In this document: positions 3,044 through 24,970 of the stretch, piece after piece
Layout of the letters: each line of letters opens with the position of its first letter
Numbering within the stretch: position 1 is the stretch's first letter
DNA from: Nostocoides australiense Ben110
GTDB taxonomy: Bacteria > Actinomycetota > Actinomycetes > Actinomycetales > Dermatophilaceae
Length of the DNA stretch: 33,570 nucleotides
Assembly (NCBI RefSeq): GCF_001050535.1
Contig: NZ_HG764815.1
Coordinates: 191,398 to 224,967 of the forward strand
Reading direction: 5' to 3'
Notes under the pieces: generated by a model
What the model saw: only the letters and a program-made list of their open reading frames with translations
The model's database searches: none
What the model was told of the DNA's origin: nothing
Translations under genes and position numbers: made by a program

Positions 3044-5866
3044 TCAAACCAGGCCGTGGCGGGCCCGGCTGGCCTGCTCCTGCTTGCGGAATTGTCCGAA
3101 GCGGGGCAGGAACTTGTCCCAGTCGATGATGTGGGCGTCGATCTCGGGGCCGTCGATGCAGGCGTGCTTGCGCACGGTCTTGCCCTCGATGGTCACCGGG
3201 ACCATGCAGGCGCCGCACATGCCGGTGGCGTCGACCATGATGGAGTTGAGGCTGGCGACGGTGTGCACGTCATACTTCTTGGCGAGATCGGCGACGGCCC
3301 GCATCATCAGCGGCGGGCCGATGGTGACGACCTCGGCGATGCGCCGACCGGTCCCCGCTCGAGCAGCCTCGAGCATGGTCTCCAGCGGCGTGGTGACGAA
3401 ACCCTCGACGCCGAAGGTGCCGTCGTTGGTCGCGTAGACGACCTCCAGCGTGTCCGGGAACTCCCGCTGCAACCCAGCCATCCGCTCGTCCTCGCCCGTC
3501 CAGAACAGCAGTGAGGCAGAACGGAATCCGGCGATCAGCGTGACGTGGTTGCCGCGCCGCAGGTGCTCGCGGGCGATCGGATAGACCGGCGGCAGGCCGA
3601 GCCCGCCGGCGGTGAAGACGACGGTCTCGGTGGCCGGGTCGTAGGCGTTGATCTCGCTCGGCCGGCCCAGCGGGCCGGCGATCCCGGCGAAGGAGTCACC
3701 GACGTTCATCTGGTTCATCTCGATGCTCGAGGTGCCGACGCCCTGGATGACCAGGCAGATCGTGCCCTTCTCGGTGTCCCAGTCCGCGAGGGTGAGCGGG
3801 ATGAGTTCCCCGTCCTCCCACGGCAGCACGCGCACGAATTGACCGGCCTGCGCCGCCTCGGCGATCACCGGCGAGTGCACGATGATCTCCTCGATCCCGT
3901 CGGCCAGGTGCGCCTTGGCGACGATGACCTGGCTCGCCGAGGCGCGCTCGGTGTAGTCCTTGGCCTTGGCCACCATGAGCGGGATCTGGTCGGCGGGGAC
4001 GTCGAGATGCCCGATGATCTCGCGCGCGGCGGCTTGGCCGTCGCCCGCGGCGTTGATCGCCGTTGATCCGCCGCGGGCGGCGTCTCCTCCGGAGTACACC
4101 CCCTCGATGGACGTTTCTTGAGATCCCTTGTGCTCCAGGTCGATCGTGCCCCACTTGGTGGTATGCAGTGTCGGCTCGGAGTCCTTGACGATCGGGTTGG
4201 CAGCGTTGCCGAGTGCCATGATGACCAGATCGGCCTTCATCGTCTCGGTCTGGCCGGTGGGGACCGGGCGCCGGCGGCCGGACGCGTCGGGCTCGCCGAG
4301 TTCCATGACGTCGAGGATGGCGGCGGAGACGAAGCCGGTCTTGTCGTCGCCGAGGAATTCCGTCGGACCACGCAGGACGAGCAGCTTGATGCCCTCCTCC
4401 AGCGCGTGTTCCAACTCCTCGACGCGGGCCGGCATCTCGGACTGGGTGCGGCGATAGACGATCGTCACGTTCCCACCCAGGCGCTTGGAGGTGCGAGCCG
4501 CATCCATGGCCGTGTTGCCGCCGCCGATGATGAGGACTTCCTTGTCCTTGACTTCGGGCAGCGGTGTCTCGTAGTCGTCGCGCAGCCCCTGCATGAGGTT
4601 GACGCGGGTGAGGAACTCGTTGGCGGACATGACATTCAGGTAGTGCTCGCCGGGCACGTCCATGAACCGGGGCAGCCCGGCGCCGGTGCCGACGAAGACC
4701 TTGTAGAAGCCGTTCTCCCGCAACTGTTCGATCGTCGCCGTCTTGCCGACGACGAAGTTGGAGACGAACTTGCCGCCGAGCAGCTTGATCTTGCCGACGA
4801 CGTCGTCGACGAGCTCGTTGGGGAGGCGGAACTCGGGTATGCCGTAGCGCAGCACGCCCCCGAGCGCATGGAAGGCCTCGAACACCGTCACCGGGAAGCC
4901 TTCTGCCGCAAGCAGATAGGCGTTGATCAGCCCCGACGGCCCCGAGCCGATGATGGCCACCGGAGGCTTGCTGGCCACCAGCCACGGGTCGCGCCGATGG
5001 GCGAAGCGTGCCGCATCGCCGTCGGGGTTGACGAGCTTCTCCCGCTCGGGCAGGAACCATTCGAGTTGGCCGATGGCGATCGGCATCTTGTTCTGGATGC
5101 ACACGCCCTGGCACTGCAACTCCTGCGGGCACACGCGGCCGGTGACATCGGGCAGCGGGTTGCACGATTCGATCAGTTCCATCGCCTCGTGGAACTTGCC
5201 GGTCCCGACGAGCTCCAACACCTTGGGGATGTGGATCTTGACCGGGCAGCCGCCCTTGAGGTCCGGCTTGCCGGCGATGTGCACGCCGACCTCACACGGC
5301 TTCTCCTCGCATTGCTTGTCGCGCAACGCTTCCAGCCACACGAAGAGGTCGACCTCGGCCCGGCTGTAGCCGACGTTCATATAGCCGAGATAGCCCTCGT
5401 TGACCAGACCGAAGTCGTGGGAGCGGTCCTCGGGTTCGCGAATGTGCGGCGGGATGGAGTTGCCCGCCGGCCAGTCCACCGACAGGCCCTTGAACATCGG
5501 ATAGCTGTCGGAGAGATGGGCATCGAGCGCCCGGACGAACTTGCGCTTGCCCTTCAGCGGCTGTGCCCACAGGAAGCGCATGATGACCCGGGACGCGTCG
5601 TCCTCGCGCAGCAGCACCTTCCACAATTCCTTGACGAAGTCGGCGCCCAACTCGTCCTGAGAGAACTCCCACATCACGGCGTTCATGCCGTCGTCGATGA
5701 ACATCTGCCGGAAGGTCGCCGGCTCGGCGATCAGCCGCCGCTTGAGCAACTCGATCTGCCGGTTGTAGGACTCCACCGCGTCGCTGTGCTCCAGCGTGGC
5801 GACCTGCGCCTGGGTGGCGGCGAGTTGGTCGCTGGCGGCCAGCCACTCGTGCAGTTCGCCGGTCAT
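3044..5866 (-). CDS. SudA-SudB / NfnAB-like fused flavoprotein (NAD(P)-ferredoxin oxidoreductase type)
   Basis: 940 aa. The ATG start overlaps the stop of the upstream PFOR gene as ATGA, so the two are translationally coupled. Residues 1-185 are an extension with no recognised domain. Residues ~186-280 carry the Cys motifs of glutamate-synthase-small-subunit-type iron-sulfur domains (CEEKPCEVG, GGCPVKIHIP, GRVCPQE..CQGVC). Two dinucleotide-binding motifs follow, IIGSGPSGL near 305 and IIGGGNTAMDAAR, as in GltD/SudA/NfnB. From ~645 there is a ferredoxin-reductase-like SudB/NfnA domain ending in a [2Fe-2S] Cys cluster (MCGACMVPV near 883, KHACIDGPE near 900). Known relatives are two separate subunits that transfer electrons between NADPH, NADH and ferredoxin. 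With PFOR next door, the likely job is moving pyruvate-derived electrons to NAD(P). Whether it bifurcates electrons or reduces polysulfide is not decidable from sequence. Confidence 0.85.
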   Translation of the reverse strand: MTGELHEWLAASDQLAATQAQVATLEHSDAVESYNRQIELLKRRLIAEPATFRQMFIDDGMNAVMWEFSQDELGADFVKELWKVLLREDDASRVIMRFLWAQPLKGKRKFVRALDAHLSDSYPMFKGLSVDWPAGNSIPPHIREPEDRSHDFGLVNEGYLGYMNVGYSRAEVDLFVWLEALRDKQCEEKPCEVGVHIAGKPDLKGGCPVKIHIPKVLELVGTGKFHEAMELIESCNPLPDVTGRVCPQELQCQGVCIQNKMPIAIGQLEWFLPEREKLVNPDGDAARFAHRRDPWLVASKPPVAIIGSGPSGLINAYLLAAEGFPVTVFEAFHALGGVLRYGIPEFRLPNELVDDVVGKIKLLGGKFVSNFVVGKTATIEQLRENGFYKVFVGTGAGLPRFMDVPGEHYLNVMSANEFLTRVNLMQGLRDDYETPLPEVKDKEVLIIGGGNTAMDAARTSKRLGGNVTIVYRRTQSEMPARVEELEHALEEGIKLLVLRGPTEFLGDDKTGFVSAAILDVMELGEPDASGRRRPVPTGQTETMKADLVIMALGNAANPIVKDSEPTLHTTKWGTIDLEHKGSQETSIEGVYSGGDAARGGSTAINAAGDGQAAAREIIGHLDVPADQIPLMVAKAKDYTERASASQVIVAKAHLADGIEEIIVHSPVIAEAAQAGQFVRVLPWEDGELIPLTLADWDTEKGTICLVIQGVGTSSIEMNQMNVGDSFAGIAGPLGRPSEINAYDPATETVVFTAGGLGLPPVYPIAREHLRRGNHVTLIAGFRSASLLFWTGEDERMAGLQREFPDTLEVVYATNDGTFGVEGFVTTPLETMLEAARAGTGRRIAEVVTIGPPLMMRAVADLAKKYDVHTVASLNSIMVDATGMCGACMVPVTIEGKTVRKHACIDGPEIDAHIIDWDKFLPRFGQFRKQEQASRARHGLV

Positions 5867-8800
5867 TGGATGATCTCCGCGTCGCAGGTCTTCTTGACCC
5901 GGTCCATCCGCTTCTCCAGATCCGGCGTGATCTCGACGCTCTCGAGCGCACCGGGGATCATCCGGGCGACCTTCTGCGGCAGCCCGTCGATGATCATCGT
6001 GTGCTGCTCGAACAGCTGCGGCAGCTCCTGATAGCAGGTGCCGCAGTCGTTGCACTTCGGGATGTCGACCTCGTCCAGCCAGATCGGCGCGTCGATCACG
6101 GCGGTTGCAGCCTCGGCCGGCGCGGCCGCCGGGGCTGCGCCACCCGGCATACCTCCGGCGCCGCTCGGGCGCACGGGGATGGCCGAGCCGAGCGAGACCG
6201 GAGCGCGGCTGGAGGAGGCGAGCGAACTCATCGCGTTGGCGATCTCGTCGATCGCGTTCTCGCGCGCCCGCATCGCCTCGTCATACCGCGCCTGCAGATC
6301 CTTCAGGTCGGAGGTGTGCAGTGCCGTCAGCTGGGCCTCGTGGACGCCGGAGAGGTACTGGAGCATCTGCCAGTAGCGGCGCCGGTCCTTCACGAGCGAG
6401 ACGATCGAGGCCGAGCACTGCACCTTGATGAGCTTCTGGTCGTCGTCGGTGGCCCAGATGAAGGGCACCTTGGAGGCCTGTTGCTCCTTGGGCAGTTCGA
6501 TGTATTCGTCCATCGGCACCGCTACGGGTTCGAGGTCGGTCGGCAGCCGGTGGAACTGCTTGCGGAAGCGGGTCTCGCCGAGCGCGAACTCCGCCGGCGT
6601 CAATGCGGCCTTCATCAGCTGGATGTTGCCGTCGTCGTCCTTGTAGGCGAGATCCGTTGTCGTCCAGGTCTTCTCGATGTCGGGGTTGCCCTCCAGGGAG
6701 AACCAGTCGTGCAGGGTCGAGCCGCGCCGTGGGTCGTGCACGAAGACCGGGTTCATCCGGGACTCGACCGCGAGCCGAGCGCGGGCCGCCGAGGCGTCCT
6801 CGCTGATGCCGTGCTCGGATCCACACGGGGTGTAGATGTCGAGCACCGCCGGCGCGTCGGTGTAGCGGAGGAACTCCATCGCATTGGTCAGGAAGTGTCC
6901 CTGGATGGCGGTGCTCGTCGCGCACACGAAGACGTGCGGGTGGAAGGAGGCGAGCAGGCCGAGTTCCTTGCGGGACTCGTGCTTGCCGTCGTGCGCCGAC
7001 CCGAAGCGGGAGAGGTCGGAGTCCTGCGCCGTCAGACTCGCCGTGGAGGCCTGCCCGCCGGTGTTGGAATAGACGCCGGAGTTGAGGACCATGACCTTGA
7101 TCGGGGTGTCGGAGGCGAGGATCCGCGACATCGCGCCGAAGCCGATGTCGTAGGAGGCGCCGTCGCCACCGATGGTCAGCACGGTCGGCATCAGGTCGAG
7201 TTCGGGCTTGGTGAAGTCGCCCCACCCGAGCATCGTCAACTGCTTGTCATGGACGGCCGGGTCATAGCTGTCGCTCAGCTCCAGCTCGGCCAGGCGCATC
7301 GCCTTGACATCCGTAACCAGTTGCGCCGCAGTGCCTTCGAAGATGCCCTTGGCCAGTGGCTGGGCGTCTTGGAAGAGGCTGTTGACCCACGGGTCGGTGT
7401 AGGGGTTGAACGGCATCGTCGAGGCGTAGACGCTGCTGCAGCCGGTGGCGTTGGCGATGATCGTCGACGCCGGGCCGGTGCCGGTCGGGCCGCCCTCGAG
7501 CAGATAGAGCCGGTGCTCGAGCGTCTTGATCGCGCCGTTGATCCGCTCGCGTCGCTCGTCGCTGTCGACGGTCGAGGCCTTGGCGTAGAGCCGGTCGATC
7601 AGGCCGATGAGCTCCTTGGTGTGCGCCTTGCGCCGCCGCTCGCCGAGGGCGTGCGAGGTCGACATGACGAGCCGGATGGCTGTCACCTCACCGCAGCCGC
7701 GGCAGCCGCCGTGCCCGCCGGTGGTCGCCCAGAAGTTGGCGTGGTCGAGCATGAGCCGCTTGATGTCGCCGTCGGGGCTGTCGGAGCCCTCGACGAAGCG
7801 GGTGGGCGTGTTCGGGTTCGCCGTCATGAACGCGAAGCGCTCCTGGAGCGTGGCGAGCACGCCGGCGTCCTGCTCCTGCACGGTCAGGGCCCCCGGTCCG
7901 CAGACCTCGACGCACTCGAGGCAGCCGGTGCACTTCCACGGGTCGATCGTCGCGGCGAACAGGCCGCCGGTGCCCGGCTCGTCCTTCTCGGGTGAGTCGA
8001 AGAACGGGCGAGTGCGCGCCACCGGGTAGGTCGCGAGCTTGGCCACGAGCTTGTCGACCGTATGCTGCATGGTCGGGTCCGTCGCGACGCTCGCCGCGGC
8101 GGTGGCCACGATCTCGTGGAACGGCTTTTCTTCCCTGTGCCGCAACGCTTCTCGGGTGCGTTCGGCGATGCCGAAGATCTCCTTGCGGAGCACATCCTTC
8201 TGTCCGTCGGTGGCGTCGATCTCGGTGACCGCCGTGAGGATCAGGTCGTGTATCTCGTGGACCGTGTTGGGGATCGCCGCGTCCGGGCAGACCAGCGCGC
8301 ACTCCATGCAGCCGGTGCAGATGTCGGGGTTGAACGCCGGCACCTCACGCCGGAAGAGGCCCTTGTCCTTGCCGGCGGCGGTGCCGGGCGGCATGAACAG
8401 ACCGGCACCCGGGAGCACCGGGGCCTCGCCGATGGTGCCCTCGCGGAAGGGTCGCGCCATCAGGTCCTCGTAATAGGTGGGGTCGAACAGGCCGGAGGTC
8501 CGCTCCGCGCGAGCGCTCGGGCACATCGACGCCGACAACGCCACCGTGAGCAGGGGTTTCGGCGCCGGGTGGTCGTCGATCTCGAGGAAGGCCGCGGTGT
8601 CGTAGTCGATCTGCGTCGTTGCCTCGATGCCGTCGAGGATGACGGACATATTGCTCTCGACGACGGTCTCGCCCTTGCGGCCGAACTTCTTCTCGATCTG
8701 CTTGTGGACGCGCTCGAGGATCTGGTCGCGCGAGGCACCGTGGGCGACGCGGTCGACGTGGGCCGCGACCGCACCGATGAACGCGATGCCCATCATGCGA

Positions 8801-10863
8801 GTCTCGAGTTCGGGGATCGGCGCGTGCTTCTTGGCCACCGTGAAGGCGTCGACGACGAAGAAGCGGATCTTCTTGTCACGGATCGTCTTTCGCGCACCCC
8901 GCGGCAGGTCCGCCCAGACCTGCTCGGGGCTGAGGTTGGACTGGAGGATGAACGTGCCACCCTCGGCCAAGCCCTTGAGCGGGTTGGTGTGGATGAACGC
9001 CTTGTGGTCGGGCGCGATGACGACTTCGACGTCCTCCAACTCGGCGTTGGTCGTCAGGATCGGCTCCGGCGAGAGCGTGATGTAGTAGTTCGTCGGCGCG
9101 CCGGACTTCTCCGAGCCGTATTTCGGCGCCGACTTGCTGTGCATCCCGAGGACGCCGGCGAGGATGTCGGTGAGCAGCTTGCCCGTCGCGATCGTGCCGT
9201 AACCGCCGACGGAGTGGAAGCGGATCCGCATCCCTTCTGCCGGAAGGAGATTCGGGTTCGGCTCGGTCTCGAGCGCCATGAGTTCAGTCTCGGGGTATGC
9301 CGCGCGCAGCCGCTCCTGGAGCTGCGCCATGTGCGGGTCGGGGTTCTTGTCGAAGAACTGCGACCCGAGATAGATGAGCGGAGGAAGGGTGCCTGCATCC
9401 AGCGCCTTGAACGCGGCATTCAGGTGGCGCGGCTGCAGGTCGTGTCCACCCAGGCCGAAGATGGCCGTGGTCAACACGGGCGACTGAGCCAGTGCGGGGA
9501 TTCCGTTGTGCCGCTGCGACTCCGCGTTCTGCTGCGCCTTGAACAGGGCCGCCGTGACGAGGGACGTCAGCGCCGTCTGGTCGGAGCGCTCCAGGACGAT
9601 GACGGACTTCTTGCCCGCGAGCGCAGCAACGACCTCGGCCTCGGGGAAGGGCTGCAGCATCTTGACGGAGACCAGGCCGGCCTTGATGCCCTGCTCGCGC
9701 AGGTAGGGCAGGACGGCGCGCACGTCGTCGCAGACCGAGCCGAGCCCGACCATGACGACCTCGGCGTCGTCGGTGTCATAGGTGTGAACCGGGGTGTAGG
9801 TGCGGCCCGTCAGTTCCGAATACTCCGCCATGGCCTGGCGCACCAGCGACGGCACGGCGGAGGCGAAGTGGGTGCGGTGGTCGACGGCGCCGGCCTGGAA
9901 GTCGGGCTGGTTCTGCACCGGCCCGGTCAGGCCGGGGTTGTTGACGTCGACGAGGGAGGGCACCAGCTGGCGCGTCCCCTTCTCCCACGCATTGACCCAT
10001 TGGCGACGCCACGGCCCCTTGAGGTCCTCGGGGACCCAGGCGAGCGTCATACCCACCAGCTCTCCGTCGTTGTCCTTCTCCACCTCGTCCGCCTTGGCGG
10101 CGAGGAAAGCCTGCAGCGCCGCAACATCATCCGCCGGGATGTCCCGGCCGTGGCGACGCAGGAACCCCTCCAACTGGAAGACCCGGCCCTTGGCGCCGAA
10201 CAGCATCTCCTGCGCCAGCGTCGGGCAGGCGATCCGGCCGGCGGGGTCACCCAGATATTCGCGCAGCAACTCCGGCTCCGGCATCAACGCCTCGGAGAGC
10301 ATGTGGCTCGTCGAGAAGCCGTCCATCGCGTTGGCGACGGGGATCAGCGAGAGCGAGGAGGCGCGGTAGGAGATCGCGGCGAGGTCGGCGGCCTCCTGCG
10401 GGTTGGCGCCGAAGAGCACGGTGTAACCGGAGGACAGCAGCGCGTAGATGTCGTCGTGGCCGGCCATGACGTTGAGGGAGTGCTTCGACACCACACGCGC
10501 GGCGACCTGCAGCACGAAGCCGCCGATCTTCTTGCCGACGGTGACGAAGTGGGACTCCATCGCGTAGAGGATGCCCTGGCTGGAGGAGGCGTTCGAGATG
10601 AACGCGCCGCCGGTCAGGGCCGCGCCGAGCGCACCGGACTGGGCGGAGTGCTCGCCCTCGGGCTCGAAGAAGAACGCGTGCTTGCCCCAGACGTTGACAC
10701 CACCCTCGGCGCGCGCGGCTTCATACAGCTCGGAGATCTCGGTCGAGGGGGTGATGGGGTAGCCGATGACCCCGCCGCAGACCTGGCTCATGACGTGAGC
10801 CACGGCGGCGTTGCCGTTGATGACGGTGGGTTGCCCCGGGTACTTCGCTGTGTTCGCGGTCAT
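5863..10863 (-). CDS. nifJ: Pyruvate:ferredoxin (flavodoxin) oxidoreductase, extended form
   Basis: 1666 aa; the usual single-chain enzyme is about 1170-1230. ATG at 10863 follows a good GAAGGA site. Order: N-terminal pyrimidine-binding domain (VINGNAAVAHVMSQVCGGV, GYPITPSTEI), a second transketolase-type domain, the gamma domain near 540-740 (HSVGGYGTIATGKLL), two [4Fe-4S] motifs (CTGCMECALVCP from 849, CTGCLECVEVCGPGAL from 978), and the thiamine-diphosphate domain (HGGCRGCGE, GGDGASYDIGFG near 1230, NSGVYSNTGGQ). It oxidatively decarboxylates pyruvate with CoA to acetyl-CoA, reducing ferredoxin or flavodoxin. The last ~250 residues are extra: a helical stretch, an Ala/Gly/Pro linker near 1550-1590, then Cys1604, 1607, 1610 and 1660, which resemble a single-cluster ferredoxin. 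Oxygen-sensitive in general, so probably used under low oxygen. Another 2-oxoacid substrate is possible. Tyr-Ala pairs here use TAC, unlike most neighbours. Confidence 0.93.
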   Translation of the reverse strand: MTANTAKYPGQPTVINGNAAVAHVMSQVCGGVIGYPITPSTEISELYEAARAEGGVNVWGKHAFFFEPEGEHSAQSGALGAALTGGAFISNASSSQGILYAMESHFVTVGKKIGGFVLQVAARVVSKHSLNVMAGHDDIYALLSSGYTVLFGANPQEAADLAAISYRASSLSLIPVANAMDGFSTSHMLSEALMPEPELLREYLGDPAGRIACPTLAQEMLFGAKGRVFQLEGFLRRHGRDIPADDVAALQAFLAAKADEVEKDNDGELVGMTLAWVPEDLKGPWRRQWVNAWEKGTRQLVPSLVDVNNPGLTGPVQNQPDFQAGAVDHRTHFASAVPSLVRQAMAEYSELTGRTYTPVHTYDTDDAEVVMVGLGSVCDDVRAVLPYLREQGIKAGLVSVKMLQPFPEAEVVAALAGKKSVIVLERSDQTALTSLVTAALFKAQQNAESQRHNGIPALAQSPVLTTAIFGLGGHDLQPRHLNAAFKALDAGTLPPLIYLGSQFFDKNPDPHMAQLQERLRAAYPETELMALETEPNPNLLPAEGMRIRFHSVGGYGTIATGKLLTDILAGVLGMHSKSAPKYGSEKSGAPTNYYITLSPEPILTTNAELEDVEVVIAPDHKAFIHTNPLKGLAEGGTFILQSNLSPEQVWADLPRGARKTIRDKKIRFFVVDAFTVAKKHAPIPELETRMMGIAFIGAVAAHVDRVAHGASRDQILERVHKQIEKKFGRKGETVVESNMSVILDGIEATTQIDYDTAAFLEIDDHPAPKPLLTVALSASMCPSARAERTSGLFDPTYYEDLMARPFREGTIGEAPVLPGAGLFMPPGTAAGKDKGLFRREVPAFNPDICTGCMECALVCPDAAIPNTVHEIHDLILTAVTEIDATDGQKDVLRKEIFGIAERTREALRHREEKPFHEIVATAAASVATDPTMQHTVDKLVAKLATYPVARTRPFFDSPEKDEPGTGGLFAATIDPWKCTGCLECVEVCGPGALTVQEQDAGVLATLQERFAFMTANPNTPTRFVEGSDSPDGDIKRLMLDHANFWATTGGHGGCRGCGEVTAIRLVMSTSHALGERRRKAHTKELIGLIDRLYAKASTVDSDERRERINGAIKTLEHRLYLLEGGPTGTGPASTIIANATGCSSVYASTMPFNPYTDPWVNSLFQDAQPLAKGIFEGTAAQLVTDVKAMRLAELELSDSYDPAVHDKQLTMLGWGDFTKPELDLMPTVLTIGGDGASYDIGFGAMSRILASDTPIKVMVLNSGVYSNTGGQASTASLTAQDSDLSRFGSAHDGKHESRKELGLLASFHPHVFVCATSTAIQGHFLTNAMEFLRYTDAPAVLDIYTPCGSEHGISEDASAARARLAVESRMNPVFVHDPRRGSTLHDWFSLEGNPDIEKTWTTTDLAYKDDDGNIQLMKAALTPAEFALGETRFRKQFHRLPTDLEPVAVPMDEYIELPKEQQASKVPFIWATDDDQKLIKVQCSASIVSLVKDRRRYWQMLQYLSGVHEAQLTALHTSDLKDLQARYDEAMRARENAIDEIANAMSSLASSSRAPVSLGSAIPVRPSGAGGMPGGAAPAAAPAEAATAVIDAPIWLDEVDIPKCNDCGTCYQELPQLFEQHTMIIDGLPQKVARMIPGALESVEITPDLEKRMDRVKKTCDAEIIQ

Positions 10864-10876
10864 TTCGTTTCCTTCA

Positions 10877-10921
10877 CCGGATTGCCACATCCGGTCTCGT
10901 CGGCCGCGCGCCACCGCGGCC
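10877..10921 (-). promoter_or_regulatory. Paired hairpins in the leader between small ORF and nifJ
   Basis: Two perfect inverted repeats occupy the 75-base gap between the small ORF and nifJ. One has 7-bp arms, GGCCGCG 10902-10908 and CGCGGCC 10915-10921. The other has 6-bp arms, CCGGAT 10877-10882 and ATCCGG 10889-10894, and ends just before the nifJ ribosome site. They could attenuate transcription, mark an RNA processing site, or protect the nifJ mRNA end. No T tract is present. Confidence 0.45.
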
Positions 10922-13542: not shown

Positions 13543-15105
13543 ATGGCAGTCCACCCCAGCACACCACGCGATCCCAGGTCCGGTGACCTCGGGATCAGCG
13601 ACGTGCTGAACCTCGTGCGCGACTGCACCGCCGCGCTGTCATCCGTGCGTCAGGAGGTCGGCGCAGCCACCGAAGCGCAACTTCTCGACCTCGTCAGCGA
13701 ACTGGGCGAACTCGCCTTGTGGAGTGACGCCGCGGAGGTCGCCGTCGTCGGCGACGCTCTCACCCGCGGCCTGCCCGCCGCCTCTCAGGTGCCTCTGAGC
13801 CCCGCCGACTGGATCGCCACGGCCTCGCGGCGGCATACCCGCGGTTCGGCGTCCCGCGTGGTGAAGATCGCCGAGGCCCTGCGGTCGCCGACGATCACCC
13901 GACCCGCCGGGGCGTTGGCCCCCGGCCAGGACGGCGAGGTTCTCGGCGAGGCGATCCTCGGCGCCGTCGTGCCGCTGCCCTGCGGCCAGGTCGCCATGGA
14001 CGAGATGCGGCGCCTGGCACCAGATCTGCAGCCCGCCTTCGTGCCGGCAGCGTGGGAGGCCTACGCCCTCGTGGGGGCAGGCGGCGACCCACGAGAGGTC
14101 CGGCGCATCCGGCCCGAGCTGTATGCCCGCTTCGGCCGCCCCGACCGGTTGAACGATCGCGACGAGGGAGCCCGCAAGCATGCGTTCCTCTCCACCGGCG
14201 CCGTCGACCCGGTCGACGGCCTGACTGACTACCGGATGTCTCTCAGCGCCGAATCCGCTGCGATCCTCGAGGCCGCGCTCGACCGTCTCACCAAACCCCA
14301 ACCCGGCCCCGACGGGGGCGCCGACCCCCGCTCCTACCCCACCCGACGAGCCGATGCCTTGATCGAACTGGTCCGGCGCGCGACGACACACGGCGTCGTC
14401 CCCACCGTCGCGCCCGACACCGGCGCCGGGCTCCAGGGGGATGGCCAGGGCCGCCCAGCCGCCGATCGCCGAGCCGCCGAACGCCCAGCCGCCGGGCGTC
14501 CGGCCAGCCAGGTGAGCCTTATCGTGCGCCTGGGTGACCTGCGCGACGAGGACGGTTGCGCCACCACCATCACCGGCCTGGACGCCGGGCGCTACCTGTC
14601 GATCGCGACCGCCCGGCTGCTGTCGTGCAACACGATGCTCGCCCCCATCATCGTGGACGAGCACGGCACGCCGATCATCATCGGTCACAGCAAACGGCTT
14701 TTCACCAGCCAACAGGTGCGAGCCATGCAACTGCGCGATGACGGGTGCTCTTTCCTGCACTGCAGCAGGCCGGCCGGCTGGGCCGATGCTCATCACCTGA
14801 TCCATTGGGCCGACGGCGGTGCCACCGAGATCGACAACGGCGCGTTGCTGTGCAACTACCACCACCACGTCGTCCACTCCCGACGCCTCGCCGGCTGGGT
14901 CACCACCGACCCACCCGACGACACGCTGGGACGACCTCCCGGGAGCAGCGAGACCAGCGACGCCGAGGACCTCGCGCGCCGCCGGGACCGCGGCGAGCCC
15001 GCAGCTGCCGACCGGCCGGCCGGGCCACCCCGCGTGCACTGGGACTTGACCCCCGGCAGTTACGACCGGCTTCTAGCCGCCCGCGCCGGCGGCAGCGCCG
15101 CCTGA
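13543..15105 (+). CDS. DUF222 domain HNH endonuclease (13E12 family)
   Basis: 520 aa. The N-terminal ~300 residues match the DUF222/13E12 helical domain (TEAQLLDLVSELGELALW, DYRMSLSAESAAILEAALD). A Pro/Ala/Arg linker follows near residues 285-325. The HNH nuclease motif is at ~400-450: a Cys pair in GCSFLHCSRPAGW, His417-His418 in ADAHHLIHWADGG, Asn in DNGALLCNYHHH, and a final His. All metal-binding and catalytic residues appear present. These proteins occur in many copies in actinobacterial genomes, often near mobile DNA; the biological role is not established. Here the gene borders a zone of repeats, broken genes and an IS fragment, in line with that habit. The tail after ~455 is Pro/Arg/Ala-rich and probably disordered. 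Confidence 0.9.
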   Translation: MAVHPSTPRDPRSGDLGISDVLNLVRDCTAALSSVRQEVGAATEAQLLDLVSELGELALWSDAAEVAVVGDALTRGLPAASQVPLSPADWIATASRRHTRGSASRVVKIAEALRSPTITRPAGALAPGQDGEVLGEAILGAVVPLPCGQVAMDEMRRLAPDLQPAFVPAAWEAYALVGAGGDPREVRRIRPELYARFGRPDRLNDRDEGARKHAFLSTGAVDPVDGLTDYRMSLSAESAAILEAALDRLTKPQPGPDGGADPRSYPTRRADALIELVRRATTHGVVPTVAPDTGAGLQGDGQGRPAADRRAAERPAAGRPASQVSLIVRLGDLRDEDGCATTITGLDAGRYLSIATARLLSCNTMLAPIIVDEHGTPIIIGHSKRLFTSQQVRAMQLRDDGCSFLHCSRPAGWADAHHLIHWADGGATEIDNGALLCNYHHHVVHSRRLAGWVTTDPPDDTLGRPPGSSETSDAEDLARRRDRGEPAAADRPAGPPRVHWDLTPGSYDRLLAARAGGSAA

Positions 15106-23224: not shown

Positions 23225-24970
23225 GTGCACTGCATCGGAATCGACCTCGCGTGGGGCGACCGCGCTCACACGGGCGTCGCCGTGCTCGACGACGGCGGGC
23301 GCCTCGAGCTGGTCACCGGCGCCACCGACGACGCCTCGATCGCGCGGGCCCTGGCCCCGTATGCCGAGCGCGACGTCGTCGTGGCCATCGATGCTCCGAT
23401 CGTGGTCACCAATGCGACCGGAGCCCGCGCGGCCGAGCGCGCGCTGGGGGCGGACTTCGCGCGCTTCGACGCCGGCGCCCATCCGACCAACACCGGCAGG
23501 CCGGAGTTCGCCGAGGGTTCCCGGGCCTCCCGCCTGGTCGCTGCCCTCGACCTGACGGTGACCTTGGACCCGCAGACGAGCCGCCGGGCGATCGAGGTTT
23601 ATCCGCACGCCGCTTCCATCGCTCTGTTCCGCCTCGGCCGGACCCTCAAATACAAGAACAAGCCCGGCCGCTCGCTCGTCGCGATGCGGGGTGAGCTGCT
23701 GCGGCTGACCCAGCTGCTCGAGTCGCTCGCGGACGCGACCCCCCGGCTGGACCTGCATACGGCCGCCTGGAGCGACCTGGTCGCCGGCATCGCCGGCGCG
23801 ACCCGCAAGGCCGACCTGCAGCGCGCCGAGGATCAGGTGGACGCGGTGCTGTGCGCGTATGTCGCTCGGCTGGCCGCGCTCGATCCGCAGAGTCTGGCGA
23901 CCTACGGTGACGACGCGAGCGGGGTCGTCGTCACACCCCGGCTGCCCGCCGATCACCAGCCCGAGCCCCGCCCGGCCCGCCAACCCGGCCGTGACCGCAT
24001 CGTCGACGAGGCAGTGCGGATCTTTCGCGAAGGGCACCCGCGACTGGAACGTGCGGCCGCGGCCTATGTGGATCACGTGCGGGGCATCCTCGACGAGGCA
24101 GGCATCAACTATCTGTCGGTGACCGGCCGCGCGAAGAGCCTGAAATCGTTCTCGGAGAAGGCGGCCCGCAGCCGAGACGGCCGACCGCTGCACCCCGAGC
24201 CGCTCGCCGACATCCACGACCAGATCGGGCTGCGGGTGATCACCTTCCTGCGTCGCGATGTCGCGGCGGTCGCCGAGCTGCTCGCCGGCGAGTTCACGGT
24301 GCTCGACGACCGCGATCTGGGGCTGGAGACCGCCGGCGAGGGTCGCTTTGGGTATGCCAGTCGCCACCTGCAGCTCGCCGTCGACACCCCGGGCATCGCC
24401 GGCGACGGGCCGCTGACCGCGACCGAGGTGCAGGTCCAGGTGCGGACGGTCCTGCAGCACGCCTGGGCCGAATACGAGCACGCGATCCGTTACAAGGGGT
24501 CGATCCCGCTCGCACACGCCTCCGAGCTGGATCGACGGTTCACGCTCGCTGCGGGGCTGCTGGAGCTGGCCGACGAGCAGTTCACCGCGATCCACGAGCA
24601 ACTGCAACAGGATGCCGAGCTGGTCGAAGAGGCGGACGACACCGCACTGTCCGGCCGCGACCTGGCCGCCTATCTCGCGGGGCACTATCGCGACGCCGGC
24701 TGGTCGCGCGAGGACCACTACGTCTGGATGGCCGCGCTGCTCGGCGAACTGGGCATCACCCGGGTGCCCGAGCTGGCCGCGGTCCTCGCCGAGGTCGACG
24801 AGGCCGAGCTGACGAGCCGGCTCGGCTACCGCTATCCCGCCGCCGCCGTGCGCCGTCTCGACGATGCCCTGCTCGCCCACTTCGGCGAGCGGTATGCCGC
24901 CCTCCCGGGCAACGCCGCCCGCCGCGAGTTGCTCGCGGCTCGCCTCGCGCGGATCGGCACGGCCGGCTGA
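23225..24970 (+). CDS. DUF429 domain fused to RelA/SpoT (alarmone synthetase) domain
   Basis: 581 aa; GTG at 23225 begins directly at the DUF429 core. Residues 1-~240 are DUF429, a predicted RNase H-fold protein: GIDLAWGDRAHTGVAVLDD, DAPIVV.N, EVYPHAASIALF, LKYKNKPGRSL, AEDQVDAVLCAYVA. A Pro/Arg linker follows. Residues ~265-440 are a RelA/SpoT nucleotidyltransferase: GRAKSLKSFSEKAAR, IHDQIGLRVITF (Asp332 for the metal), FGYASRHLQ (Tyr377, guanine stacking) and VQVQVRTVLQHAWAEYEH. In the usual E-x-Q-x-R-T motif the Glu is replaced by Gln403, with Glu401 two residues before. No HD hydrolase domain, TGS or ACT is present. Residues 440-581 are helical, unrecognised. It may make (p)ppGpp-like nucleotides or pyrophosphorylate tRNA like toxic small synthetases, or be a degenerate sensor; which is open. 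Divergent from the lipid operon and convergent with fgd. Confidence 0.85.
   Translation: MHCIGIDLAWGDRAHTGVAVLDDGGRLELVTGATDDASIARALAPYAERDVVVAIDAPIVVTNATGARAAERALGADFARFDAGAHPTNTGRPEFAEGSRASRLVAALDLTVTLDPQTSRRAIEVYPHAASIALFRLGRTLKYKNKPGRSLVAMRGELLRLTQLLESLADATPRLDLHTAAWSDLVAGIAGATRKADLQRAEDQVDAVLCAYVARLAALDPQSLATYGDDASGVVVTPRLPADHQPEPRPARQPGRDRIVDEAVRIFREGHPRLERAAAAYVDHVRGILDEAGINYLSVTGRAKSLKSFSEKAARSRDGRPLHPEPLADIHDQIGLRVITFLRRDVAAVAELLAGEFTVLDDRDLGLETAGEGRFGYASRHLQLAVDTPGIAGDGPLTATEVQVQVRTVLQHAWAEYEHAIRYKGSIPLAHASELDRRFTLAAGLLELADEQFTAIHEQLQQDAELVEEADDTALSGRDLAAYLAGHYRDAGWSREDHYVWMAALLGELGITRVPELAAVLAEVDEAELTSRLGYRYPAAAVRRLDDALLAHFGERYAALPGNAARRELLAARLARIGTAG

Follow-up and report, generated by a model that had tools for sequence, protein, structure and literature searches.

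A DUF429-alarmone synthetase fusion protein in Nostocoides australiense, a probable orthologue of RelZ with a replaced ExQxRT glutamate

The window, as the whole 33,570-nucleotide stretch of Nostocoides australiense Ben110 DNA is called here, encodes a protein that is probably an orthologue of mycobacterial RelZ. It would combine a nuclease with an alarmone synthetase that lacks the catalytic Glu of the ExQxRT motif and tolerates this loss. The domains, the folds, the conservation of residues, the distribution, the selection, and the solitary gene come from the present analysis. The two activities, the preference for GMP, the independence of Mg, and the need for the full-length chain for each activity come from the published work on RelZ. 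The design of the fusion is already known as RelZ and is not novel. The part that is worth pursuing is the loss of the catalytic Glu across the clade.

Domain layout of the fused protein

The ORF begins with a GTG codon. Pfam identifies DUF429 (PF04250) at residues 5-220 (E 4.8e-26, 92.3 bits against a cut-off of 23) and RelA_SpoT at residues 301-425 (E 6.6e-12, above the gathering score), in that order in a single chain. A scan of the whole protein against Pfam with E up to 1 returned these two families only, and the RNase HII family model gave no match. The same order of domains and a closely similar length are found in the distinct fused homologues that are counted in Table 1. Compared with its nearest relative, L093, the window gene has dN 0.196 and dS 0.828 (dN/dS about 0.24 overall), and all of its domains are under purifying selection. 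Because of this selection and of the homologues with the same order and length, the fusion is real and conserved and not a chance arrangement. The preliminary description, which had read the two domains from the letters, is upheld on this point, and both domains are kept together in these 129 homologues.

The protein was modeled by AlphaFold2 on 45 fused homologues (mean pLDDT 87.4), with a pTM of 0.54 that leaves the placement of the domains relative to each other uncertain. Residues 1-235 of the model align with RuvC of Thermus thermophilus (Z 10.3, rmsd 3.5, 146 residues, VIA-align). The domain possesses conserved acids at Asp7, Asp56, and Asp203-x-x-Asp206, and Glu124 is also invariant. 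The arrangement of these acids resembles the active-site quartet of RuvC. The DUF429 profile had no sequence match among PDB chains at E up to 10. In a published classification, DUF429 belongs to the clade of the RNase H superfamily that contains RuvC (PMC3985635). Since DUF429 is RuvC-like both in fold and in this classification, the term RNase HII, as used for the DUF429 of RelZ, is the name of a reported activity and not of a sequence family.

The extra C-terminal region that had been described before is a helical domain. It is modeled with confidence at residues 476-578 (pLDDT 92.2). In the PDB, Foldseek found no match to its fold under E 0.8, and the best VIA Z was 3.7. This domain is conserved and is common to the stand-alone relatives.

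Table 1. Positions of the fused gene and its features in the window.
Feature	Position	Strand	Basis
RelZ-type DUF429-synthetase gene	23225..24970	+	Uninterrupted ORF, 581 aa plus stop; 129 distinct fused homologues
DUF429 domain (aa 1-235), RNase H/RuvC-like fold	23225..23929	+	Pfam; model against T. thermophilus RuvC
Asp7, invariant acid of RuvC-like set	23243..23245	+	Conservation
Asp56, nearly invariant acid at the end of strand 4	23390..23392	+	Conservation and model
Asp203-x-x-Asp206, invariant acids of the last core helix	23831..23842	+	Conservation and model
Alarmone-synthetase (SYNTH) domain, aa 259-465	23999..24619	+	Pfam, alignment, model
Asp332, metal ligand equivalent to SaRelP Asp107	24218..24220	+	Invariant in 168; PMC5794853
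Tyr377 and Ser379-x-His381, guanosine side (Syn3 SxH)	24353..24367	+	Invariant
Gln403 (CAG), at the site of the catalytic Glu of ExQxRT	24431..24433	+	Alignment, conservation, codons
C-terminal all-helical domain, aa 476-578	24650..24958	+	No Pfam family, no clear PDB match

The synthetase domain and position 403

The nearest sequence relatives of the protein in the PDB are RelQ/YjbM and RelP/YwaC. Residues 262-462 of the model align with RelQ (BsRelQ) and SaRelP with Z 17.9 and rmsd 2.6 over 181-185 residues (VIA-align). In SaRelP, the ATP site is formed by Arg78, Lys80, Ser84, Lys88, Arg91, Asp107, Arg112, Glu174, and His190, and Mg is held by Asp107 and Glu174 (PMC5794853). Going by order and spacing, the counterparts in the window protein are Arg302, Lys304, Ser308, Lys312, Arg315, Asp332, Arg337, Gln403, and His419. 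The metal-side Asp that comes before strand 2 in RSH/SAS synthetases is therefore present as Asp332. The SxH motif is a guanosine signature (PMC12226406). Asp332, Tyr377, and Q403-V-Q-V-R-T are found as they had been described from the letters.

The profile alignment to RelQ has no gaps between position 403 and the HAWAEFEH segment, and the distance from Gln403 to His419 is +16, as it is from Glu174 to His190 in SaRelP. Therefore, the Glu is truly replaced and there is no offset of two residues, which agrees with the Glu-to-Gln change that had been noted. The residue at position 403 was compared among 168 distinct synthetase halves of the clade: 108 have Ser, 53 have Gln, six have Ala, and one has Glu, so that the catalytic Glu of the Syn4 motif ExQxRT is replaced by Ser, Gln, or Ala in 167 of them. 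Gln403 itself, whose conservation had been in question, thus varies. Fused and stand-alone forms lack the Glu alike, and the codons at this position are mostly CAG, TCG, and TCC. The genera used for comparison are taken to be Mycobacterium and Corynebacterium. Ser is present in 63 of the 63 Mycobacterium fusions examined, which are part of the 129 fused homologues, and Glu is present in 30 of 30 Corynebacterium relatives.

Changes were counted on a tree with 80 members of the clade. There were none at Arg302, Lys304, Ser308, Lys312, Asp332, Arg337, Tyr377, His381, Gln405, Arg407, Thr408, Glu418, or His419, and two at Arg315. Position 403 has changed at least eight times. Because the other mapped residues have next to no changes while position 403 has this many, the synthetase of the clade is under constraint, with a carboxylate at position 403 probably no longer needed. 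Asp290 and Asp362 are invariant in the RelZ clade and are not so in Corynebacterium RelS.

The one Glu-bearing clade member, L021 (1489-3315, minus strand), reads VEIQIRT. Two Kineosporia members, L113 and L119 (fused gene at about 7182-8972), both have Ala at position 403. In L113, the DUF429 domain also has Asn at the position of Asp56 and an altered W10-G11. Judging from these substitutions, both of its active sites may be decaying.

Distribution and genomic surroundings

Counting that of the window, 29 full-length fusions were present in 395 genomes of the class, along with 12 C-halves of this type that stand alone; DUF429 alone was found in other genomes of this set. Carriers of the fusion include Nocardioides, Cellulomonas, Blastococcus, Klenkia, Kineosporia, and Ornithinimicrobium. 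The C-half is found alone in Terrabacter, Knoellia, Janibacter, and Serinicoccus. Of 396 Mycobacterium genomes, 122 have the C-half of RelZ, almost always in a long frame that would fit the fusion. DUF429 alone is present in many Mycobacterium genomes (L073-L082), where it is about 45-55% identical to the fused domain, and some of these genomes have two DUF429 genes.

On the tree, the synthetase half of the window protein groups with the Mycobacterium fusions and apart from Corynebacterium RelS (outgroup branch support 87). Seven changes between fused and DUF429-less states fall on the synthetase-half tree, and two changes between fused and DUF429-only forms fall on the N-domain tree. This suggests an old fusion from which DUF429 has possibly been lost several times, although the parsimony counts leave the direction unfixed. 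A plasmid or phage origin was rejected. No plasmid or phage record covers 80% of the protein, and the partial matches have less than 60% identity and, with few exceptions, involve the synthetase domain alone.

The gene is solitary. Its upstream neighbor is a divergent WS/DGAT gene whose start is 105 bp away, and the end of a convergent luciferase-like gene lies 9 bp downstream. No adjacent antitoxin candidate was found in the flanking genes and gaps. A conserved operon or partner was also rejected, with this arrangement of neighbors recurring only beside the gene of the closest relative, L093. The genome contains one other RelA_SpoT gene, a 777-aa frame that is consistent with a long Rel; no second DUF429 and no second small synthetase were found in it.

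Elsewhere in the window, the minus-strand region 3044-10914 encodes a 1003-aa protein with Fer4_20, Pyr_redox_2, and DHODB Fe-S domains, which resembles fused NADH-ferredoxin:NADP oxidoreductase subunits. There is an overlap with the end of a 1683-aa pyruvate:ferredoxin oxidoreductase that carries an additional ferredoxin-like domain at its C terminus. A DUF222-HNH endonuclease-like gene of the 13E12-repeat type, typical of actinobacteria, is present at 13543-15105 (plus strand).

Predicted function and comparison with known systems

Some actRel proteins of M. gilvum, M. smegmatis, and M. vanbaalenii have an N-terminal DUF429 (Atkinson et al., 2011, PMC3153485). That of M. smegmatis, MSMEG_5849 (MS_RHII-RSD, later RelZ), is reported to have RNase HII action through its DUF429 (PMC4429107). 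RelZ is reported to act on RNA:DNA hybrids and R-loops, which it degrades. Removal of R-loops and synthesis of pGpp, ppGpp, and pppGpp are reported for it, the latter with a preference of GMP > GDP > GTP; the full-length protein is reported to be a hexamer and the isolated domains to be inactive (PMC7591505). Its activity is reported to be Mg-independent (Ruwe et al., 2017, PMC5566576). The same authors noted that homologues in Mycobacterium and Marmoricola possess a second domain and that RelS_Cg and Rel_Cg deviate slightly from ExQIRT. The preliminary description knew of no characterised protein of this design, and RelZ is one, already described biochemically (PMC7591505, PMC4429107, PMC3153485). 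Its suggestion of a nuclease/alarmone effector matches the activities reported for RelZ. That the RelZ clade as a whole has lost the Glu is mentioned nowhere in the literature searched, with the 2012 RelZ paper outside it.

We infer by analogy that the window protein does the same as RelZ. DUF429 would serve as a RuvC/RNase H-fold nuclease, probably cutting RNA:DNA hybrids or R-loops. The C-terminal half would be an actRel small alarmone synthetase in which the standard Arg/Lys/Ser/His set binds ATP and the Tyr377/SxH site binds a guanosine nucleotide. Pyrophosphate transfer (guanosine 3'-pyrophosphokinase) would then probably give pGpp, ppGpp, and pppGpp. The second metal-side carboxylate is gone in the clade, leaving Asp332 alone. 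The loss would be tolerated through a relaxed requirement for the metal or the base, either because the Glu acts only via water or because its place is taken by another residue.

The loss is a difficulty for this reading. In RelSeq, the same Glu-to-Gln change (E323Q) is reported to abolish synthesis (PMC13299517, citing Hogg, 2004). Gln in place of the mycobacterial Ser, and an identity of about 52-57% to the mycobacterial fusions, also count against this reading. The difficulty is softened because the Glu of SaRelP contacts Mg only through two waters (PMC7983052), because RelZ is reported to be Mg-independent, and because Asp290 and Asp362 are invariant in the clade. These three facts are leads and not proof. 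Alarmones could arise in the RelZ clade from a Glu-free form of the RSH reaction, with Asp332 as the one carboxylate, a relaxed or absent Mg dependence, a preference shifted to GMP, and Asp290 or Asp362 possibly as the base; this proposal is tentative and, on balance, doubtful. If true, the RSH superfamily would have a second mode of catalysis. A residue that is called catalytically essential in RSH synthetases is absent from almost the whole clade, presumably including RelZ, and the one enzyme with a reported preference for GMP and a reported activity without Mg is a member of this clade. Unless the textbook view of the Glu is too strict, the reported synthetase activity of RelZ needs to be re-examined. 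The window protein (Gln), mycobacterial RelZ (Ser), Kineosporia and Pimelobacter-type members (Ala), and the one Glu-bearing member provide a natural series of mutants.

It is rather unlikely that the synthetase has turned into a sensor, which makes no alarmone and in which the binding of ATP or a guanine nucleotide switches the RuvC-like nuclease on or off. The RelSeq result, with the exact change that is present here, speaks for it, as does the freedom of position 403 (Ser, Gln, Ala) beside fixed binding residues, a pattern that a binding-only domain would share. Against it, the metal ligand Asp332 and the residues contacting the transferred phosphates are invariant as well; RelZ, the one studied clade member, is reported to make all three products, and its Mycobacterium relatives lack the Glu. 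In addition, the synthetase half is probably functional without the nuclease, since DUF429 appears to have been lost repeatedly while this half persists alone.

A toxSAS-like toxin of a toxin-antitoxin pair, pyrophosphorylating tRNA or making ppApp, had also been suggested and is very improbable, because the gene is solitary without an antitoxin beside it. The synthetase fold is common to CapRel (Z 12.7) and Tas1 (Z 11.7), but the protein is closer to RelQ/RelP and actRel, its Syn3 is of the guanosine type, and the gene is carried by a large share of the species in several genera, such as the Mycobacterium genomes counted above. Finally, an offset of two in the motif, with Glu401 as the real catalytic residue, has a negligible probability: Glu401 does lie on the same strand (residues 401-408 in the model), two residues ahead of Gln403, so the letters of the supposed shift were read correctly, but it occurs in one of 168 relatives, the window protein itself, and Gln405, Arg407, Thr408, Trp414, and His419 hold the exact RelQ/RelP spacing.

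The preferred reading remains that of a RelZ orthologue. As in RelZ, a single chain of about 575-600 residues carries DUF429, the synthetase, and a C-terminal extension in this order, with the ATP and guanosine residues conserved. The ExQxRT Glu is absent from the sampled Mycobacterium fusions and, by extension from them, RelZ of M. smegmatis would have Ser at the equivalent of position 403. The window protein differs in its Gln, in its identity of about 52-57% to the mycobacterial fusions, and in its host, which belongs to a different family, that of Janibacter (J. melonis) and Arsenicicoccus (A. cauae). Corynebacterium RelS (RelS_Cg, cg2324; actRel) also has a synthetase followed by a C-terminal extension, with a C-half identity of about 35-43% across the genus, but it has no DUF429 and keeps the Glu. 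RelQ/YjbM and RelP/YwaC share the fold and all of the mapped ATP-binding residues; they are single-domain proteins that keep the Glu (Glu174 in SaRelP) and have neither DUF429 nor the helical C-terminal domain. RuvC-type nucleases resemble the N-terminal domain in fold and in the acids on strand 1, strand 4, and the D-x-x-D of the last helix, whereas this domain has no PDB sequence match and the substrates reported for RelZ are RNA:DNA hybrids and R-loops.
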